Assembly: GCF_033110285.1 (NCBI RefSeq)
Contig: NZ_CP136995.1
Span: 2,790,001 to 2,854,000, forward strand
Reading direction: 5' to 3'
DNA: 64,000 bases
Origin: Ottowia sp. SB7-C50
Lineage (GTDB): Bacteria > Pseudomonadota > Gammaproteobacteria > Burkholderiales > Burkholderiaceae_C
Shown here: in pieces, positions 6,023 to 38,535 of the stretch
Position numbering within the stretch: the stretch's first letter is position 1
Layout: each line of letters starts with the position of its first letter
Notes under the pieces: generated by a model
Told to the model about the DNA's origin: nothing
The model's database searches: none
The model's input: only the letters and a program-made list of their open reading frames with translations
Made by a program: the position numbers and the translations under genes

Positions 6023-8359
<2,337 letters not shown>

Positions 8360-8477
8360 GGTGTGTTTCCTTTAGCGCCTCAAGCTTACGAATTTCCAGA
8401 GGCTTCGACTGTGACAGTTGGGGGAGGTTCAGTGATATTCAACGCCATGTCGCCTGCTGTGGCTCGCCGGGAAAGCC

Positions 8478-8849
8478 CTAGTCGACAGGCTCGCTGACGC
8501 ACTGGAGCGGGTGCCCCGCCTGGCGCGCCGCGTCCAGCACCTGCTCAACCTTGGTATGCGCCACGTCGCGCGTGTACACGCCGCATACGCCCTTGCCGTC
8601 CAGGTGGATCTTCAGCATGATCTGGGTGGCGCTTTCGCGGTCCTTGCCGAAGAACTCCTGGATCACGACCACCACGAACTCCATGGGCGTGTAGTCGTCG
8701 TTCAGCATCACCACCTGGTGCATCTGGGGCGGCTTGACTTTCTGCGGCACGCGCTCAAGCAGCACTTCGCCGCCACCACCACCGCCGGGCTGCTTCACGG
8801 GTGCGATCGGGCCCGGCGGGGCGGGCACTTTCGGTTGGGATGTCGCCAT
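8478..8849 (-). CDS. clpS: ClpS adaptor for ClpAP (N-end rule)
   Basis: The 123-residue protein carries the ClpS core ([13 protein letters not shown] and the following helix [15 protein letters not shown]), preceded by a flexible Pro/Gly-rich N-terminal tail of about 40 residues. ClpS delivers proteins with N-terminal Leu, Phe, Tyr or Trp to ClpAP. The recognition pocket residues NDD and the later [12 protein letters not shown] helix are present. An ATG at 8858 would add three residues (MIF). Neither start has a good ribosome site, so the start is uncertain. Confidence 0.93.
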
Positions 8850-9054
8850 GAAAATCATTCTATAAGGCCGCCGCGCACGGGTATCGAGGCTGGCCGCCGG
8901 TTAAGCAGATGGGGCCGAGTCAGCCGGCTGCAAGCTGGATCGGCGAGCGTGGAGTCCGCGCGTCTACAACAATGCAGCCCGGTTGACAAGGGCAAAGTGG
9001 TTCCGCGACACTCCCAGCCGGGTGGATGGATGTAACAAAAAAGGAGAGACCCGC

Positions 9055-9330
9055 ATGCCCAACGGTAAAGTCAAGTGGTTCAACGACCTCAAGGGGTTCG
9101 GCTTCATCGAGCCGGACGAAGGCGGGCCCGATGTGTTCGCGCATTTTTCGGCCATCGACATGGACGGCTTCAAGACGCTCAAGGAAGGCGCCCGGGTGAG
9201 CTACGAGGTCGATCAGGGCCCCAAGGGCCTGCTGGCGCTGAAGATCCGCACCGTGGAATCGGACGGCGCCCTGGCCGGCAACCCGATGCCGGCCCCGGTG
9301 ACGACCGAGTCGTCAGCGCTGCCGAACTGA
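9055..9330 (+). CDS. Cold-shock domain protein (CspA family)
   Basis: The protein has 91 residues, of which the first 67 or so form a cold-shock domain with the RNA-binding motifs KGFGFI and VFAHFSAI. A 20-residue Pro/Ala-rich tail makes it longer than a typical 67-70 residue CspA. It binds single-stranded nucleic acids and melts RNA structure. The ATG at 9055 follows a strong AAGGAGAG site at 9041-9048. A TTGACA hexamer at 8983-8988 is a plausible -35 element; the -10 is weak. Confidence 0.93.
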
Positions 9331-9346
9331 AAGTTCGCACGAAACC

Positions 9347-9375
9347 AAAAGCCCGGGTCGCCCCGGGCTTTTTTT
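9347..9375. terminator. Bidirectional terminator between csp and icd
   Basis: The stem AAAAGCCCGGG/CCCGGGCTTTTTTT has a 4-nt loop and T runs on both strands. It serves the cold-shock gene (ends 9330) and the convergent icd gene (ends 9394). Confidence 0.85.
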
Positions 9376-9393
9376 GTGGGCGCGGCGGCCGCG

Positions 9394-10647
<1,254 letters not shown>

Positions 10648-30876: not shown

Positions 30877-31251
30877 ATGGGAAACAAAGTCATTCACCTG
30901 GCCGACTGGGCCGTGCCCAGCTATCGCCGGCAGCGCAGCGCCGCACCGCGCACCGTCACCTCGCCAGCGGGCGGCTGGAGCGACATGGCCCGCCAGCGGG
31001 TGGCGCAGCGCCACGCGGGCGCGCAGGGCGGCCCCACCAGCCTGTCGCTGGTGCCCAGCGCCGAAGCGCCCGGTGCCGCCCCCATCGTCACCGGCGCGCC
31101 CGCCGTGCGGGTGACCCGCCCGTTGGACGCGCGCCATGCGGCAGACGCCAGCGGGCGGCTGCGCATTTCGGGGCGGCTCATCGACGTGTGCGCCGAACTG
31201 GAACGGCTGGCCGCCGCCGAGGCGCAGGCCGCGTTGCCGCGCCGGGCTTGA
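30877..31251 (+). CDS. Conserved-looking hypothetical protein downstream of lexA
   Basis: The 124-residue protein has a GAAAGG-type ribosome site just before the ATG. The N-terminus (MGNKVIHLADWAVPSYRR) looks like a conserved motif. A flexible Pro/Ala/Gly-rich middle follows, then a C-terminal amphipathic helix (DVCAELERLAAAEAQAAL). No signal peptide or membrane segment is seen and I do not recognise the family. It follows lexA by 159 bp in the same direction; no good SOS box is visible in front of it. Confidence 0.55.
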   Translation: MGNKVIHLADWAVPSYRRQRSAAPRTVTSPAGGWSDMARQRVAQRHAGAQGGPTSLSLVPSAEAPGAAPIVTGAPAVRVTRPLDARHAADASGRLRISGRLIDVCAELERLAAAEAQAALPRRA

Positions 31252-31580
31252 GCGTGGCCGCGCCGCGCGGGGGCGCCGCGCCCATCCCGGTAGATGGGCG
31301 GCGTTGACGGGGCGCACCGCCCTGGGTGCGAAGCCGCCCGCGCCAGCCATCTGCGGTGGCGTGCCCGGGCGTGATGGCTGGCAGCACACGGCACTTTTCG
31401 CCCGCTGGCGCTGGCCCATCAACGGCGAATTGCTCCTGAATTCGAAGCAAAATGTCGGGCGCCAGCGCGCGTGCCCGGCGCGGCGCAAGCCCATCGACGC
31501 GGCGTTCCACGCCTTGCTTTCGCATCGCGGCGCATGCCGCCTGGCCGCGGCGCTGCGGTACGACCATGCCCAAAGGCACA
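31252..31580. other. Intergenic region with a 9-bp inverted repeat
   Basis: About 330 bp with no gene I can support. It holds GCCAGCCAT (31342-31350) and ATGGCTGGC (31374-31382), perfect arms around a 23-nt GC-rich loop. They could form a stable structure or terminator after the preceding hypothetical gene. Confidence 0.4.
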
Positions 31581-32597
31581 ATGCGGGTCATGAATATCGT
31601 GATCCTCGACGACTATCAGGACGCCGTTCGCAAGCTGCCCTGCGCGTCCAAGCTCGAGCCGTATCCCGCCAAGGTCTACACCAACACCGTCAAGGGGCTG
31701 GGCCAGTTGTCGGTGCGCCTGCGCGATGCCGAAGTGATCGTGCTGATCCGCGAGCGCACGCACATCACGCGCCAGCTGGTCGAAAAGCTGCCCAGACTGA
31801 AAATGATCTCGCAGACGGGGCGCATCGGCAGCCATGTCGACGTGGTGGCCTGCACCGAGCGCGGCATCGCCGTCGCCGAAGGCGTGGGTTCGCCGGTGGC
31901 ACCGGCCGAGCTGACCTGGGCGCTGATCATGGCGGCCGCACGCCGGCTGCCGCAGTACGTGGGCAACCTCAAGCACGGCGCGTGGCAGCAGTCGGGTCTG
32001 AAGTCGGCGTCGATGCCGCCCAACTTCGGCCTGGGCACGGTGCTGCGCGGGCGCACGCTGGGCATCTGGGGCTACGGCAAGATCGGCCAGCTGGTGGCCG
32101 GCTACGGCCGCGCCTTCGGCATGCGCGTGATGGTGTGGGGTTCGCCGGAATCGCTGGCCCGCGCGCGCGCCGACGGGCACGCCGCGGCACACGACAAGGC
32201 CGACTTCTTCGCCAACGCCGATGTGCTGTCGCTGCATCTGCGGCTGTCCGACAGCACCCGCGGCATCGTGCGCCTGGACGACCTGAGCCGCATGAAGCCG
32301 ACCGCGCTGCTGGTCAACACCTCGCGCGCCGAACTGATCGAGCCCGACGCGCTGGTCAGCGCGCTCAACCGCGGCCGGCCCGGCATGGGCGCCGTGGACG
32401 TGTTCGAGACCGAGCCGATCCTGCAGGGTCACGCGCTGCTGCGGCTGGAGAACTGCATCTGCACGCCGCACATCGGCTACGTGGAACAGGACAGCTACGA
32501 GCTGTACTTTGGCGCCGCGTTCGACAACGTCGTCAACTACCTGCGCGGCACGCCGACCAACATCGTCAATCCGGGCGCGCTGCAGGTGCGTCGCTGA
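31581..32597 (+). CDS. D-isomer-specific 2-hydroxyacid dehydrogenase family protein
   Basis: The 338-residue protein is of the D-2-hydroxyacid dehydrogenase / phosphoglycerate dehydrogenase type. The N-terminal catalytic lobe (VILDDYQDAVRKL) leads to the hinge SQTGRIGSHVD. The NAD-binding Rossmann domain contains GIWGYGKIGQLVA, and the final catalytic block is LENCICTPHIGYVEQDSYE. The substrate-binding Arg and the His of the PHIG motif are present, as is the VNTSRAELIE segment. The ATG at 31581 follows an AAAGG site; ATG 31590 is a close alternative. The precise substrate is not clear. Confidence 0.85.
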   Translation: MRVMNIVILDDYQDAVRKLPCASKLEPYPAKVYTNTVKGLGQLSVRLRDAEVIVLIRERTHITRQLVEKLPRLKMISQTGRIGSHVDVVACTERGIAVAEGVGSPVAPAELTWALIMAAARRLPQYVGNLKHGAWQQSGLKSASMPPNFGLGTVLRGRTLGIWGYGKIGQLVAGYGRAFGMRVMVWGSPESLARARADGHAAAHDKADFFANADVLSLHLRLSDSTRGIVRLDDLSRMKPTALLVNTSRAELIEPDALVSALNRGRPGMGAVDVFETEPILQGHALLRLENCICTPHIGYVEQDSYELYFGAAFDNVVNYLRGTPTNIVNPGALQVRR

Positions 32598-32640
32598 CAG
32601 GCATGCCGGCCGTCGCCGGTTCATGACCTGACAGGCCCTC

Positions 32641-32690
32641 AGCGCTGAATGGACAATCGTCTATAGCTATTAAAATCATAGCTATTCGGT
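32641..32690. repeat. AT-rich interspersed element, copy 7
   Basis: It contains GACAATCGTCTATAGCTATT and ATTAAAATCATAGCTATTCG, a near repeat of copy 3 at 15.1 kb. It overlaps the end of the alpha/beta-hydrolase gene. Confidence 0.6.
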
Positions 32691-33581
32691 GCCAGACGCT
32701 TCGCCGTCGCCCCCGCCCGGGGCTTTCAGCAGCCAGTCGATGACCCCTGGCAATACTTCCCGCGCGGCCTGCGGCGAATGCAAGATGCTGGCGTGGCCAT
32801 ACGCATGGCCGTAGCCGGTGGCTGGCCCGCACACCGCAAATTCGCCCTCGACGTGGCCGCCGAACCGGCGCCAGAAGCGGCGGCACGCCTCTGCCGGCGC
32901 GATGAAGTGGTCTGCCTGCCCCGCCACCGCCATGACGGGTATCGCGATGCGCTGTTGGTGCAAGCCGTAGTCAAACCCATCGTCACCCAGAAACGCCTGC
33001 GAGAGGTTCCAGCGGAACCACGGCGCCATCATGGCGTGCGATTCATCCTGTACCCCCAGGCGCAAGGGGCGGGCCGGGATGCGCCCCGCCAGGCGCGTCA
33101 ACGCGGCCGCCCCCGCCAGCCGGGCGCGCCGCCAGGGCGTGTGGCCCGCGTCGCAGGCCTGGCAGGCGAACAAGGCCATGCGCTGCAGGTGTGCGGACCA
33201 CGCGGGCTGGCGCAGCAGCGCCATCGTCAGCGCCAGGCCCCCGCCGCTGTGCGTGGCCGCGCACAGCGGGGCGCCGGGGTGGCGGGCCTGCAGGTCCTGC
33301 AAGGCCGCGGGGATGTCGCGCAGGGCCACGGTCTCCATGTCGTACGGCCCGGTGACGCGGTCGCTGCTGCCGTGTCCGCGCCATTCCAGGATCCACGCCA
33401 CATGCCCCTGCCGGGCCCAGGCGCGGGCCAGGGTCATGCAGACGCGCCGGTCAGAAAACGTGCCGTGCGTCAGCAGCAGGTGCCGCGGCTCGGCTGCGCG
33501 CTGTTCGGCGTCCATCAAACGCCACCAGCCCAGCCCCACGCCGTCTGACGCGCGCAGGGGCAAGGGGTCGCAGACGATCAC
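32682..33581 (-). CDS. Alpha/beta-hydrolase at the end of the ACP/KAS/radical SAM operon
   Basis: The 299-residue protein has an alpha/beta-hydrolase layout: HLLLTHGTFSDRRV (oxyanion region), then WILEWRGHGSSD, and the nucleophile elbow ATHSGGG (GxSxG-like, with Ser in HSG). A possible acid (Asp in VAGQADHFI) and a late histidine near YGHAYGHA follow. It resembles esterase, lipase or thioesterase-like enzymes and may release or trim a fatty product. It starts 15 bp after the radical SAM stop codon in the same direction and ends in a repeat. The precise reaction is unknown. Confidence 0.8.
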   Translation of the reverse strand: MIVCDPLPLRASDGVGLGWWRLMDAEQRAAEPRHLLLTHGTFSDRRVCMTLARAWARQGHVAWILEWRGHGSSDRVTGPYDMETVALRDIPAALQDLQARHPGAPLCAATHSGGGLALTMALLRQPAWSAHLQRMALFACQACDAGHTPWRRARLAGAAALTRLAGRIPARPLRLGVQDESHAMMAPWFRWNLSQAFLGDDGFDYGLHQQRIAIPVMAVAGQADHFIAPAEACRRFWRRFGGHVEGEFAVCGPATGYGHAYGHASILHSPQAAREVLPGVIDWLLKAPGGGDGEASGTE

Positions 33582-33596
33582 AGCGCTGGCTCACCG

Positions 33597-35096
33597 TCAG
33601 GGCGTCGGGCTGCAGGCGCCGGCTTCAGTGACCGGCCGGATCGGAATGCGGACCGGGCGGGCCGCCTGCTGCGCCGATGCCGCCTGCAACGCCAGCACGC
33701 GCGGCTGGGCCATCAGGCTCTGGATCAGCGGCACGTAAAAACTGCCTTCGGCGCTGAGTTGCCATGTGCGGTGGCGCACGCTGGCCCAGCCGCGCTGTTC
33801 CAGCACCTCGGCCACGCCCGCAAAATCATCCACAAACTCGGTGCCGAAATGGGCGTGGTATTTGTCCAGCCCCACCGCCATCTCCTGCAGCGACTGAAAC
33901 AGCCACAGCAGACGCACGTCCTCGTCGGTGTGCACATGAAAGCGCTCGACCGGCATGCGACCGGCCTGAACCGATTCGGCATAGCGTGTGAGCGAGCGCC
34001 AGTTCATGCTGGACACCGACGGATCGCCGACCGACGAATGGTGCACCCGCACATTGACCGCGGCGTGGCCAAACCCGCACATGTAGCGCCGCGCCTCGGG
34101 GTCGGTGGCATCCAGTCCATCGCGCAGATTCTGCTCGTAACGGTATTCCGCCGCCTTCAGCCCGCTGGGCAATGCGACGGCCTCGGGGCGCTCCCAGTCG
34201 TACACGGTGCGCTGCACAAAGCCTTCCGACTCCAGGTACGCCTTGGCCTGCAAGTACATCTCCAGCTTCTGCGCCACGCTCGGCACATGCTGCTTCTGGC
34301 GCTGTGCGAAGTCGGAACGCCCGGCGATATTCAGCTCGTAATGCGTGATGTGGCGAATGCCCGAGGCCACGACGGCGCGCAGGCCTTCCAGCATGTCCTG
34401 CACCGTCTGCTCGGGCCACGCGTAGATCAGGTCCACGTTGCAGGCCAGGTCGTGCCGAGCGAAGGAAGCAATGGCGTCGAACACCTGCCGGTTGGTCTGC
34501 CGGCGGCCGCTGTAGCGAATCAGGCGCTCGTTCAACTGCTGTACGCCCATGCTGACGCGGTTGAACCCCGCCGCCTGGATGGCGCGGATCTTGTCTTCGG
34601 AAAACAGTTGCGGAATGCCTTCCAGCGTTTTTTCGATGCCCTGCGTCTGCCCCGGAAATAGCCCCTCGGCCAGTTCCATCAGGCGGCCGTAGTCGCCCGG
34701 GTGCAGCAGGTTGGGCGTGCCGCCGCCGACGTAGAACGATTCGAGCTGGCTGCCCCGATGGACGTCGCGCTGCAGTTCGATCTCGCGCGCCATCAGCTCC
34801 AGGTAGTGGCTCGCCGCCGTCTTGCCGCGATAGTCTTCGGTGGGAAACAGGCAGAAGCCGCAGTGCGGGGGATCGGTGGGCAGGCAAAACGGAATGCTGA
34901 AGTACAGGTTGACCCGGGCAGGATGCCGGGGCTGCGCCGCCCACGAACTGCGCAGGGCTGTTGCATCGGCGGCATCGCGCCAGAACGCCGGCGACGGGTG
35001 GCCGTGCAGCACCTTGTTGGACGTGTGCCGGTCCTGATGGCGCGACAGGAACGACAGCACCTCGGCGGGGCTCATGATGGTGCGGGAGGGTGTCAT
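33597..35096 (-). CDS. HemN-like radical SAM protein with CX7CX2C motif
   Basis: The 499-residue protein follows the coproporphyrinogen III oxidase (HemN/HemW) layout: VNLYFSIPFC start of the radical SAM core, SFYVGGGTPNLL (SAM-binding GGGTP, about 124-128), FNRVSMGVQQLNE and NVDLIYAWPEQT. The cluster cysteines are Cys71, Cys79 and Cys82 (CLPTDPPHCGFC), that is CX7CX2C rather than the CX3CX2C of HemN/HemW. A C-terminal domain like that of HemN continues to residue 499. It sits in an operon with ACP and KAS, so a role in radical modification of an ACP-bound or fatty substrate is inferred rather than haem synthesis. Confidence 0.85.
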   Translation of the reverse strand: MTPSRTIMSPAEVLSFLSRHQDRHTSNKVLHGHPSPAFWRDAADATALRSSWAAQPRHPARVNLYFSIPFCLPTDPPHCGFCLFPTEDYRGKTAASHYLELMAREIELQRDVHRGSQLESFYVGGGTPNLLHPGDYGRLMELAEGLFPGQTQGIEKTLEGIPQLFSEDKIRAIQAAGFNRVSMGVQQLNERLIRYSGRRQTNRQVFDAIASFARHDLACNVDLIYAWPEQTVQDMLEGLRAVVASGIRHITHYELNIAGRSDFAQRQKQHVPSVAQKLEMYLQAKAYLESEGFVQRTVYDWERPEAVALPSGLKAAEYRYEQNLRDGLDATDPEARRYMCGFGHAAVNVRVHHSSVGDPSVSSMNWRSLTRYAESVQAGRMPVERFHVHTDEDVRLLWLFQSLQEMAVGLDKYHAHFGTEFVDDFAGVAEVLEQRGWASVRHRTWQLSAEGSFYVPLIQSLMAQPRVLALQAASAQQAARPVRIPIRPVTEAGACSPTP

Positions 35097-35102
35097 GCGG
35101 TG

Positions 35103-36356
35103 TCAGTGGGTAGGCAACGGTGGCGGCGCCACGACCAGGCTGGCGTTGATGCCGCCAAAGGCAAACGAGTTGGACAGCACAGCACCCCGGCGCGCCAAGG
35201 GCCGCGGCCCATCGCGCACAAAGTCCAGCGCGGCGGGGGCCGGCTCGGGCGTCTGCAGGTGGCGGGTATGCGGCACCTGGTGGTGCTGCAGCGCGGCCAC
35301 GCAGGCGGCCAGTTCGATCGCACCCGATGCGCCCAGCAGATGGCCGTGCAGCGATTTGGTGGAACTGATGGGCACCCGATGCCCTTCGAACACGCCGCCC
35401 ACGGACTTCATCTCCACCGCGTCGCCCACAGGCGTGCCGGTGCCGTGGGCGTTGATGGCCACGATGTCCTGTGGCCGGCAGCCCGCATCGGCCAGGGCGG
35501 CGCGCATGGCGCGCTCCTGGCCGTCCGCGCTGGGTTCGGTCCAGTGATGCGCGTCGTTGCTGCAGCCGTAGCCTTGCAGGACCGCCAGCGGCGCGGCGCC
35601 GCGCGCTCGCGCGGCCTCGGCCTGCTCCAGCACGAAGAACACGGCGCCCTCGCCCAGCACCATGCCCTGCCGCGACGTGTCGAACGGCCGGCAGGCGTGG
35701 CCGAGGTCATCGTTGGTGGCCATCACGCGCATGACCTCCCACGCCTTGAGCGTGCCGCCGCCAAAGGGCGCCTCGCTGCCGCCGGCCAGCATGCATGTCG
35801 CGTAGCCGTGGCGGATGGCGCGCATGGCCTCGCCCAGCGCCATGGCGGACGAGGCGCAGGCCGTGGTCACCGTCTGCACCGGCCCTTGCAGTCCCAACTC
35901 CATCGCCACCGCGCTGGCCGCCGCCGACGGCAGGCAGCGCAGCAAGGTCAGGCCGGGGACGCGCTGCGTGGCAAACAGGCGCTCATACGCGCTGTGGCTG
36001 GATTCGGTCGGGCCGCACCCATTGCCCACGTAGACGCCACAGCCGTCCAGGATGTCGCGCCGTCCGGGCAACCCCGCATCGTCGATGGCCCGTTGCGCCG
36101 CCAGGATCGCCAGCTGACCCGTGCGATCCAGGTGCGACGGCCACGCGCGCGACAGCAGCTCGGGGTCGTCCACCAGCGCCGCGGGCACCGGCCGGACCAT
36201 CGGCTTTTCCAGGCGCACAAACACGCTCTGTGCGGTGAACAGCTGCTCGGCGAAGGCTGCCGGCGTGCAGCCGAGCGGGGTTGAAAATCCCCAACCCGTG
36301 ATCCACACGGCATGCCCCGCTCGGGGTGCAGGCGCCGGGGCGGCAGAGACCGTCAA
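35103..36356 (-). CDS. Beta-ketoacyl-ACP synthase (FabF/KAS II-like)
   Basis: The 417-residue condensing enzyme keeps all catalytic residues: Cys167 in VTTACASS, His304 in NAHGTGTPVGD, and Lys334 and His337 in TKSLHGHLLGASG. It extends acyl-ACP by two carbons from malonyl-ACP. It starts at an ATG overlapping the ACP stop (ATGA) and ends 6 bp before the radical SAM gene, so it belongs to the same transcript. It is the only condensing enzyme in the window and stands alone, not beside fabD, fabG or fabH. It is therefore likely specific to this operon rather than part of housekeeping lipid synthesis. Confidence 0.92.
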   Translation of the reverse strand: MTVSAAPAPAPRAGHAVWITGWGFSTPLGCTPAAFAEQLFTAQSVFVRLEKPMVRPVPAALVDDPELLSRAWPSHLDRTGQLAILAAQRAIDDAGLPGRRDILDGCGVYVGNGCGPTESSHSAYERLFATQRVPGLTLLRCLPSAAASAVAMELGLQGPVQTVTTACASSAMALGEAMRAIRHGYATCMLAGGSEAPFGGGTLKAWEVMRVMATNDDLGHACRPFDTSRQGMVLGEGAVFFVLEQAEAARARGAAPLAVLQGYGCSNDAHHWTEPSADGQERAMRAALADAGCRPQDIVAINAHGTGTPVGDAVEMKSVGGVFEGHRVPISSTKSLHGHLLGASGAIELAACVAALQHHQVPHTRHLQTPEPAPAALDFVRDGPRPLARRGAVLSNSFAFGGINASLVVAPPPLPTH

Positions 36357-36622
36357 GAAGCCACCTTGGCGCCGGCCTTGGCCTGCTTTTCGGCGCAGAG
36401 GCGCTCCACCACCGTGGCCAGATCGCCCACGCTGCGCGCGTCCGCCAGATCGGCGTCGCTGATGGCGATGCCGAACTCGGCCTCGACGTCAGCCAGGAAG
36501 TCCACCATGTCCAGCGAATCACCGACGGCATTCAGCGGCGTATCAGGCTGAATCGCGGCCTGGTCGATCTTGAAGAAGCGTTGCGCGAGTCTGAGCAGTT
36601 CGTGCGCCACAGGGGAGGTCAT
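36353..36622 (-). CDS. Stand-alone acyl carrier protein
   Basis: The 89-residue protein is an acyl carrier protein with the phosphopantetheine serine Ser36 in VGDSLDMVDFL. The flanking acidic helix II and the later EFGIAISDADLADARSVGDLATVVE block match the fold. It starts at an ATG at 36622 preceded by an AGGACAG site, and its stop overlaps the KAS start. A longer upstream frame is not supported. It is likely a dedicated carrier for the operon's product. Confidence 0.92.
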   Translation of the reverse strand: MTSPVAHELLRLAQRFFKIDQAAIQPDTPLNAVGDSLDMVDFLADVEAEFGIAISDADLADARSVGDLATVVERLCAEKQAKAGAKVAS

Positions 36623-36700
36623 GGTCTGTCCTGAATCGTGGTGGAGGGGACGCGGCGGCAGGGCTGCAAGGGGTGCGCCATGACACGTCAGCGCGTTCAT

Positions 36701-36719
36701 TGTGAATTCCGCATTCACA
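36701..36719. promoter_or_regulatory. 19-bp palindrome between divergent ACP and 3-hydroxyacyl-CoA dehydrogenase genes
   Basis: TGTGAATTCCGCATTCACA has perfect 7-bp arms with a 5-nt centre, and the symmetry extends outwards with 9 of 11 matches on each side. It lies 79 bp upstream of the ACP start and 133 bp upstream of the dehydrogenase start, in an AT-rich divergent promoter region. The spacing is not that of a CRP site (TGTGA-N6-TCACA). It looks like an operator for a dimeric repressor, unidentified. Confidence 0.7.
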
Positions 36720-36851
36720 TTGGACCTAACCATTATGGGGTATGGATATTTAAAGGATTCGACTTGTCGCCGAATTTTTTTTGGGACGCCGCTGCCACCC
36801 CCAGTGCGATCCAGAACCGGCCTGCCCGGTCGAGACGCATAATCTCCGTCC

Positions 36852-38375
36852 ATGGAGACACCTGAATTCAAGACCGTCGGCATCGTCGGCACCGGCGCCA
36901 TGGGCCGGGGCATTGCCCAGATCGCCGCGCAAGCCGGCAGCACCGTGCTGCTGTTCGACACCCAGGCCCAGGCCATCGCCAAGGCCAGCGAATCCATTGC
37001 GGCGCAATGGGACAAGCTGGTCGAAAAAGGCCGCCTGTCGCGCGAGGCGGCCGACGCGCAGAAGGCCCGCCTGCGGCCTGCGGCAGCGCTGGCCGACCTG
37101 TCGGCGTGCGATCTGGTCGTCGAGGCCATCGTCGAGCGGCTCGACGTCAAGCAAAAGCTGTTCGGCGAACTGGAAGGCATCGTGCAGCCGTCCGCCGTGC
37201 TGGCCACCAACACCTCGTCGCTGTCGGTGACGGCGATTGCCGCGGCGCTGCAGCGCCCGGCGCAGTTCGCGGGCTACCACTTCTTCAACCCGGTGCCGCT
37301 GATGAAGGTGGTCGAGGTCATTGCCGGCCTCAAGACCGACGCCGCCGTGTGCCAGCGCCTGGCTGTGTACGCGCGCCAGATGGGCCACACGCCGGTGCAG
37401 GCCGAAGACACGCCGGGCTTCATCGTCAACCACGCCGGGCGGGGCTATGGCACCGAAGCGCTGCGCATCGTGAGCGAAGGCGTGGCCGACTTCGCCACCA
37501 TCGACCGCATCCTCAAGGACCAGGTGGGCTTCAAGCTGGGGCCGTTCGAGCTGATGGACCTGACCGCGCTCGACGTCTCTCACCCGGTGATGGAATCCAT
37601 CTACCGCCAGTATTACGACGAGCCGCGCTACCGCCCGAGCGTCATCACCGCGCAGCGTCTGGCCGGCGGCGTGGTGGGGCGCAAGGTGGGCGAAGGCTTC
37701 TACCAGTACGCCGATGGCGCCGCCCAGATCGCCGCCGAGCCGCCCGTGCCGCAGGTGGCTGAAATGCCGCCGGTGTGGGTGTCGACCCGCGCCGCGCGCC
37801 GCGCCGAGCTGTACCAATTGCTGAAGGACCTGGGCGCCAAGATCGAGACCGGCCAGTCGCCGTCGATGAATGCCCTGACCCTGGTGGCGCCGCTGGGCTT
37901 TGACGTGACCACGGTCGCCGTCGTCGAGCGGCTCGACCCGGCGCGCACGGTGGGCATCGACATGCTGGTGGACGATGCGGCCACCAAGCGCCGCGTGCTG
38001 GCCACCAACCCCGCCACGCGGCGCGACATGGCCGACGCCGCGCACGCGCTGTTCGCGCGCGACGGCAAGGCCGTCAGCGTGATCCGCGACTCGGGCGGCT
38101 TCGTCACGCAGCGCGTGGTGGCCACCATCGTCAACATCGCGGCCGACATGTGCCAGCAGCGCGTGTGCAGCCCCAAGGACCTGGAAACGGCGGTCACCCT
38201 GGGCCTGGGCTACCCGCTGGGCCCGCTGGCCATGGGCGACCGCTTCGGTCCCGCCAATGTGCTGGAAGTGCTGTTCAACATGCAGACCGTGTACGGCGAC
38301 CCGCGCTATCGCCCCAGCCCGTGGCTGCGCCGGCGCGGCGCCATCGGGCTGAGCCTGATGCATGAAGAGGAGTGA
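36852..38375 (+). CDS. 3-hydroxyacyl-CoA dehydrogenase (PaaH-like)
   Basis: The 507-residue NAD-dependent enzyme is of the FadB-N/PaaH class without an enoyl-CoA hydratase part. The Rossmann motif VGIVGTGAMGRGIAQIAAQAG is at the N-terminus, followed by the NTSSLSVT segment, the catalytic GYHFFNPVPLMKVVEV and the DTPGFIVNHAGR block. The C-terminal half repeats the helical 3HCDH domain (GYPLGPLAMGDRFG). It oxidises 3-hydroxyacyl-CoA in fatty-acid, phenylacetate or related degradation. It is divergent from the ACP operon and its stop codon is followed by a GC-rich repeat. Confidence 0.92.
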   Translation: METPEFKTVGIVGTGAMGRGIAQIAAQAGSTVLLFDTQAQAIAKASESIAAQWDKLVEKGRLSREAADAQKARLRPAAALADLSACDLVVEAIVERLDVKQKLFGELEGIVQPSAVLATNTSSLSVTAIAAALQRPAQFAGYHFFNPVPLMKVVEVIAGLKTDAAVCQRLAVYARQMGHTPVQAEDTPGFIVNHAGRGYGTEALRIVSEGVADFATIDRILKDQVGFKLGPFELMDLTALDVSHPVMESIYRQYYDEPRYRPSVITAQRLAGGVVGRKVGEGFYQYADGAAQIAAEPPVPQVAEMPPVWVSTRAARRAELYQLLKDLGAKIETGQSPSMNALTLVAPLGFDVTTVAVVERLDPARTVGIDMLVDDAATKRRVLATNPATRRDMADAAHALFARDGKAVSVIRDSGGFVTQRVVATIVNIAADMCQQRVCSPKDLETAVTLGLGYPLGPLAMGDRFGPANVLEVLFNMQTVYGDPRYRPSPWLRRRGAIGLSLMHEEE

Positions 38376-38452
38376 CGCCCTGAGTCGCTGGGCGCCTCCC
38401 CAAGCGGGAAAGACGCCAGCGCCCGGGCCAGGCCTGCTCCGTCGCCCCTGAC
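38376..38452. repeat. GC-rich post-stop repeat, copy 3 (degenerate)
   Basis: It begins at the stop codon of the preceding gene with CGCCCTGAGTCGCTGGGCGC, then GACGCCAGCGCCCGGGCCAG and GGCCTGCTCCGTCGCC. The order of blocks matches copies 1 and 2 although sequence is shorter. Confidence 0.5.
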
Positions 38453-38535
38453 TGGCGCATCAGCCAGAAAATGGCGTTTTGCGCATAATGGATAAGCGCA
38501 GTGCGCTATTCAAACAGTAGCAATCAGGAGTCCGC

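Follow-up and report, generated by a model that had tools for sequence, protein, structure and literature searches.

What does a bacterium do with an acyl carrier protein (ACP), a condensing enzyme, a radical S-adenosylmethionine (SAM) protein and a hydrolase that are encoded side by side? We investigated such a set in a stretch of 64,000 nucleotides from Ottowia sp. SB7-C50 (NZ_CP136995.1, positions 2,790,001 to 2,854,000 of the forward strand), which is called the window here and belongs to a genome of 3.61 Mb on one contig. Our analysis suggested, with a probability of roughly 55%, that the operon is a dissociated (type II-like) counterpart of a polyketide-cyclopropanating unit with hydrolytic release. 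The radical SAM protein would be a putative cyclopropanase or methylene transferase, and the hydrolase a putative acyl-ACP thioesterase.

The operon and its radical SAM protein

The whole operon occupies positions 32682-36622 and is read on the minus strand in the order (5' to 3') ACP, beta-ketoacyl-ACP synthase (KAS), radical SAM protein and alpha/beta-hydrolase. Its features, with the gap upstream of it, are as follows:

36353-36622, minus strand: stand-alone ACP, 89 aa, ATG start; phosphopantetheine Ser36 in GDSLDM; Pfam PP-binding, 44.8 bits
35103-36356, minus strand: KAS, 417 aa, TTG start; C167, H304, K334 and H337; Pfam ketoacyl-synt, N-terminal part 128.6 bits, C-terminal part 120.3 bits
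33597-35096, minus strand: HemN-fold radical SAM protein, 499 aa, ATG start; C71-x7-C79-x2-C82; Pfam Radical_SAM, 60.9 bits
32682-33581, minus strand: alpha/beta-hydrolase, 299 aa, GTG start; triad S112, D224 and H263; Pfam Hydrolase_4, 56 bits
36623-36851, no strand: divergent gap between the operon and a 3-hydroxyacyl-CoA dehydrogenase gene; presumed promoter region, by position only

We confirmed that the four genes form a real operon. All four frames are open and free of internal stops; the ACP and KAS genes overlap by 4 bp, and gaps of 6 bp and 15 bp precede the radical SAM and hydrolase genes, just as the original prediction had described this unidirectional unit. The identities that it had assigned were also borne out: the Pfam assignments of all four proteins exceed the gathering scores, Ser36 of the ACP is in place, and the Cys-His-Lys-His active site of KAS condensing enzymes is complete. 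The KAS scored 326.4 bits against the FabF cut-off of 493.75 (TIGR03150), which it missed, and it shares 36% and 34% identity with the two further full-length KAS proteins of this genome. Third-position GC was 0.81-0.89 in the operon genes against 0.87-0.93 in six neighbours. A sigma-70-type scan detected no promoter site in the divergent gap, no RNA element reached its gathering score in 31000-38500, and a Pfam scan of the four operon and four flanking proteins found no methyltransferase. Genes for ketoreductase (KR), dehydratase (DH) and acyltransferase (AT) are absent from the operon.

The radical SAM protein belongs to a separate HemN-fold family and is neither HemN nor HemW. It missed the curated NCBIfam cut-offs of all 19 models that it matched, among them HemN (TIGR00538, 120 bits against 324.95), HemW (TIGR00539, 111.3 against 205.4), HutW (TIGR04107, 158.2 against 400) and STM4012 (NF006067, 167.6 against 380); the genome's own HemN and HemW scored 572 and 340.9 bits. 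The cluster motif Cx7Cx2C is present in 120 of 120 homologues among the matches listed. HemN carries Cx3Cx2C followed by a fourth cysteine, as seen in the 1olt alignment, a difference in spacing that the original prediction had not pointed out; at the column of this fourth cysteine the window protein has F84. Its structure model aligns to HemN from residue 20; NocN is absent from the fold-search match lists, which proves nothing. PF04055 was the sole Pfam match at E ≤ 0.001, and no cobalamin-binding domain was detected.

Phylogenetic analysis placed the Cx7CxxC family on one side of a branch with 99% support in the Shimodaira-Hasegawa-like approximate likelihood ratio test (SH-aLRT), opposite 23 other HemN-like rows (own HemN, own HemW, 18 unclassified rows of relatives, one HutW-like and two STM4012-like). 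Rows with broken or short frames (L027, L028, L075, L076, L079-L083 and L110) were removed before the 78-row tree; a 60-row tree omitted 18 further near-duplicates and 20 of the 23 outgroup rows and included 18 of the 120 listed homologues. The original prediction had staked its case on a protein that does not group tightly with bona fide HemN or HemW, and the branch keeps it apart from them.

We then compared the pocket for the second SAM with that of NocN, in which the residues touching this molecule include Tyr34, Tyr96, Arg153, Asp196 and Ser225 (PMC12871812). A profile alignment set Y65, Y122, R180, D222 and T251 of the window protein against NocN Y34, Y96, R153, D196 and S225, with Thr for Ser at the last position. 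In 186 family rows, position 122 was Y in 179, F in 3 and a gap in 4, and position 251 was T in 184 and a gap in 2. The 24 outgroup rows had mostly F at 122 (19 rows; L in 2 and Y, H and A in 1 each) and S at 251 (19 rows; Q in 2 and T, A and Y in 1 each), while the genome's HemN has H and A at the two positions and its HemW F and S. The sole outgroup row with both Y122 and T251 was L113, which is HutW-like (235.8 bits against the HutW cut-off of 400). At these two telling positions, the protein resembles the class C methylase NocN and not HemN, and the aligned residues would favour methylene or methyl transfer over HemN-type decarboxylation.

Linkage to polyketide synthase, condensing enzyme and hydrolase genes

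The stand-alone HemN-like cyclopropanases Jaw5, Pfl2 and Log2, from the jawsamycin, fuelimycin and S. longispororuber pathways, have an invariant Cx7CxxC (C68, C76 and C79 in Jaw5), and the POP-iPKS pathway to which they belong combines a polyketide synthase (PKS) of the domain order ketosynthase (KS)-AT-DH-ACP with a stand-alone KR, a cyclopropanase and a thioesterase (PMC13389473). This paper, of 2026, was the only match for Cx7CxxC with radical SAM in the literature searched under that spelling; as CX7CX2C, the spacing is described in reviews for B12-dependent PoyC (PMC5682303, PMC11285071). The window protein is like Jaw5, Pfl2 and Log2 in being HemN-like, in carrying the motif at nearly the same residue numbers and in having KS and ACP partners, and pfl and log also carry a separate thioesterase gene, as the window carries a hydrolase. 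However, the PKS that these enzymes work with is multidomain (KS-AT-DH-ACP) and is accompanied by a stand-alone KR, whereas in the window operon ACP and KAS are separate proteins and AT, KR and DH are missing. Moreover, Pfl4 is a hotdog-fold thioesterase that reportedly has no homologue in jaw (PMC13389473), whereas the window encodes an alpha/beta-hydrolase.

Are such partners found beside other members of the family? The search for loci relied on homology to the radical SAM gene; PKS content played no part in their choice. In L071 (Nocardia), a KS-AT-DH-ACP PKS is followed by the radical SAM gene, the end of which is overlapped by 4 bp by an alpha/beta-hydrolase gene. L073 has a KS-AT-DH-ACP PKS between two family copies (3-1223 and 7941-9416), plus KASIII and an ACP domain. 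The order in both loci is the POP-iPKS domain order of PMC13389473. Family members in L026 and L074 adjoin PKS or nonribosomal peptide synthetase (NRPS) genes. On two Deinococcus plasmids (L114:11986-14842 and L115:11965-14789), radical SAM, KASIII and ACP genes end a PKS/NRPS cluster that also has thioester reductase and aminotransferase genes; there the radical SAM and KASIII genes overlap by 4 bp, and both radical SAM proteins have Cx7CxxC. The order in L059 is radical SAM, KAS, ACP. On visual inspection, a CNLRCRGC stretch in the frame after this ACP (L059:4446-4694) resembles the beginning of a second radical SAM protein; the fragment has no Pfam match.

The state of adjoining a KS or carrier gene needs at least four changes on the tree. 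Matches to KAS, KASIII and ACP queries were found in 10 of the 65 family loci; the 20 control loci, which surround other HemN-like genes (own HemN, own HemW and 18 genes of relatives that were not classified singly), gave none. Chance proximity of KAS and ACP genes was rejected on this contrast, weak as it is. The linkage to KAS, ACP and PKS genes is a repeated one, and from motif, fold and context the Cx7CxxC HemN-fold family very probably includes the polyketide cyclopropanases.

The linkage between the radical SAM and hydrolase genes is conserved. Of 63 loci, 31 have a relative of the window hydrolase beside the radical SAM gene and on its strand (downstream in 30, upstream in 1), 6 have the two fused, and in 26 no such relative was found. 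Among these 26, the DNA of L068, L076, L079 and L063 stops 101, 1, 289 and 635 bp past the end of the radical SAM frame, and in L071 another alpha/beta-hydrolase occupies that place. The fusions run in one reading frame in L047, L048, L049, L051, L057, L078 (Methylomirabilota) and in protein P0119. The triad columns S112, D224 and H263 are invariant in 42 aligned sequences, and the hydrolase model (predicted local distance difference test score, pLDDT, 95.2) has a predicted lipase/esterase/thioesterase fold. Lipases and esterases rank higher among its fold matches, the thioesterase DcsB slightly lower, and the curacin thioesterase was also matched. The protein thus has the features of alpha/beta-hydrolase-fold thioesterases, that is, the Ser-Asp-His triad and the fold.

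Other known systems share some of these properties. The window protein has the fold and the general two-SAM type of core of HemN, HemW, HutW and STM4012, but differs from them in its separate branch, its cluster spacing and its scores below all curated cut-offs. The substrate of C10P/C10Q is not known to be an acyl-ACP. C10P/C10Q is likewise HemN-like and performs a two-SAM methylene transfer to a double bond, but it needs a separate methyltransferase (PMC6050322), whereas the window operon is without one. The second-SAM Tyr, Tyr, Arg, Asp and Ser/Thr of the class C methylases NocN and NosN align with the window protein; however, these enzymes have the canonical Cx3Cx2C and a peptide substrate with indolic acid, and NocN is without HemN's N-terminal trip-wire (PMC12871812), whereas the window protein has Cx7Cx2C and the HemN alignment from residue 20 given above. 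PoyC and related B12 radical SAM methyltransferases have the Cx7Cx2C spacing, but PoyC is a class B, cobalamin-dependent enzyme (PMC5682303, PMC11285071), whereas the window protein has no further Pfam domain and a HemN fold match.

Proposed pathway and its alternatives

How could the four proteins act together? The dedicated ACP would carry the chain and the KAS would elongate it; ketoreduction and dehydration, borrowed from fatty acid synthesis, would then give an enoyl-ACP. The radical SAM protein would bind two SAM molecules and transfer the methylene of the second to the double bond, forming a cyclopropane; a methyl branch is a less likely outcome of this step. The alpha/beta-hydrolase would finally free the acid, presumably by acting on a thioester. 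The genes, residues and linkage fit the original prediction of a unit that builds, radical-modifies and releases an acyl chain, while the order of events, reaction, substrate and product are what we infer from them. Its pointer to Jaw5-type cyclopropanation gained indirect support from the common Cx7CxxC (PMC13389473), the PKSs of L071 and L073 and the NocN-like residues.

The genome bears on the borrowed steps. Two PP-binding matches were found in it at E ≤ 0.001, the window ACP and one adjoining a FabF-like KAS gene, and a third was not found. Because the only other PP-binding carrier found is an ACP of the type II fatty acid synthesis (FASII) kind, KR and DH activities would have to be borrowed from FASII. 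The genome also holds FabB (664.6 bits, cut-off 630), and three weaker ketoacyl-synt matches, which span profile positions 145-206 only, are probably thiolases. A CMAS-family protein is encoded as well; thus phospholipid cyclopropanation is probably a separate function.

Several observations weigh against the proposed pathway. Most radical SAM-hydrolase loci are without a KS or carrier gene in the fetched DNA, and L073, L074 and the Deinococcus stretches are without a window-type hydrolase. In place of a KS-AT-DH-ACP PKS with a stand-alone KR, the window operon encodes just an ACP and a KAS as separate proteins, and it contains no KR or DH gene. Little weight can be put on the contrast of 10/65 with 0/20: two of the four queries were taken from L114, which, together with L115, was retrieved in a separate search; the operon in L021 is the sister of the one in the window; and the KASIII matched in L039 lies nearly 7 kb off. 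R180 and D222 are common to the outgroups, so that only positions 122 and 251 of the pocket discriminate. Cx7Cx2C spacing alone does not fix the reaction, because B12-dependent PoyC has it too, and the kinship to Jaw5, Pfl2 and Log2 is drawn from motif, fold and context, not from their sequences. The modelled hydrolase fold does not tell thioesterases from lipases.

These points leave room for other readings. The same unit might C-methylate the ACP-bound chain through a class C radical SAM protein and yield a branched acid, which we consider rather unlikely: the pocket is common to class C enzymes, the NocN-type residues are conserved and the HutW-like row L113 also has Y and T at 122 and 251, but Cx7CxxC has been reported for polyketide cyclopropanases (PMC13389473) and two family members adjoin the same KS-AT-DH-ACP architecture. 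It is improbable that the radical SAM and hydrolase proteins are a lipid-modifying pair, in which the former would modify an acyl chain within a membrane or storage lipid and the latter, being lipase-like, would cleave the ester, with ACP and KAS as accessories. An extra HemN/HemW-type protein that sits in an acyl operon by accident would share the fold and core type; this heme-related reading was rejected as very improbable on the missed HemN and HemW cut-offs, F84, the separate tree branch and the presence of the genome's own HemN and HemW. More broadly, it is a tentative idea that a widespread, so far unrecognised family of stand-alone radical SAM cyclopropanases, mostly with an alpha/beta-hydrolase, has acyl-ACP, either ordinary or dedicated, as its substrate and releases cyclopropyl fatty acids with no large PKS involved.

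If the cyclopropanating reading is true, the operon could offer a simple way of making ring-bearing fatty acids, a small version of machinery best known from large antibiotic-type enzymes. Jawsamycin is reportedly antifungal. Only a few iterative PKS pathways are described as making chains with more than two cyclopropanes, which are sought as fuels (PMC13389473). In Gram-negatives, a dissociated unit of four genes, or a radical SAM-hydrolase pair of just two, would be a far simpler system for probing such enzymes, and proteins labelled coproporphyrinogen oxidase in many sources would be acyl-chain modifying enzymes.

Distribution of the operon and of the radical SAM-hydrolase pair

How widely does the four-gene set occur? 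An orthologue of the radical SAM gene was found in 1 of 28 other genus genomes (G010, 82% identical). L021 includes the G010 stretch with every letter identical and holds the four genes in unchanged order with the same two flanking genes; DNA identity between window 32682-36622 and L021:6456-10373 is 79%, and 85-97% in the flanks. We fetched 20 genus loci around the flanking 3-hydroxyacyl-CoA dehydrogenase gene. The operon was present in 2 of them, and in 12 the other flanking gene, for a 2-hydroxyacid dehydrogenase, directly adjoins the 3-hydroxyacyl-CoA dehydrogenase gene with no operon between; of the remainder, 1 has the flanking genes about 0.9 kb apart, 2 have the second flank unseen and 3 end too early. 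Since 2 of the 20 loci carry the operon and 12 have joined flanks, it seems to have been gained or lost as a unit. The set is also more than chance, because a second genome shares order and site while 12 of the 18 other genus loci have the flanks directly joined without it.

The ordered four-gene set was found in 2 genomes. Family profile matches occurred in 2 of 300 order, 1 of 369 class and 3 of 399 family genomes, in sets that overlap and each count the own genome; two further matches are G168 (the L044 record, with no KAS or ACP match) and G1068. With profile matches so rare, the four-gene set found no support as a widespread unit. The original prediction had made the co-occurrence of radical SAM, KAS and ACP genes across lineages its test, and for the ordered four-gene set this was not supported: it is the radical SAM-hydrolase pair that co-occurs, and most pair loci are without KAS or ACP within the fetched DNA. 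Thus, the four-gene form is rare and the radical SAM-hydrolase core is broad. Members of the radical SAM family came from nine phylum-level groups, five of which (Pseudomonadota, Bacteroidota, Methylomirabilota, Rokubacteria and Myxococcota) also had the pair. As far as a limited literature search shows, neither the pair nor the four-gene set has been recognised so far.

A scan of viral contigs matched 11 stretches, none of them a relative, and viral carriage was rejected. Among metagenome protein clusters, equal longest contigs were recorded for P0007 and KAS P0224 (25,291 bp), for KAS P0126 and hydrolase P0262 (22,768 bp), and for P0121 and P0241 (4,860 bp), which hints at more operon copies in metagenomes.

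The neighbours of the pair differ between groups. In 15 loci of L030-L046 (Granulosicoccaceae-type; excluding L037 and L044), a gene of one cluster lies upstream of the pair; the L030 copy, the sole one scanned, is GGDEF-EAL, and L037 has too little upstream DNA. In Acinetobacter (L023, L024, L025 and L027), the pair is preceded by genes that, in L023, match CheW, MCP signal and CheA-type domains; P0029, one protein cluster of this clade, comprises 692 sequences. Because the pair adjoins signalling genes in Granulosicoccaceae (GGDEF-EAL) and Acinetobacter (CheA/MCP), the released acid could be a signal. In Acidobacteriota (L058, L064 and others), the radical SAM gene stands without a window-type hydrolase. 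There, in 11 loci, it comes after a gene for a large protein; these proteins form one cluster, and the L058 member matches peptidase M1. It is followed by an opposite-strand gene with an HpcH/HpaI match in L058.
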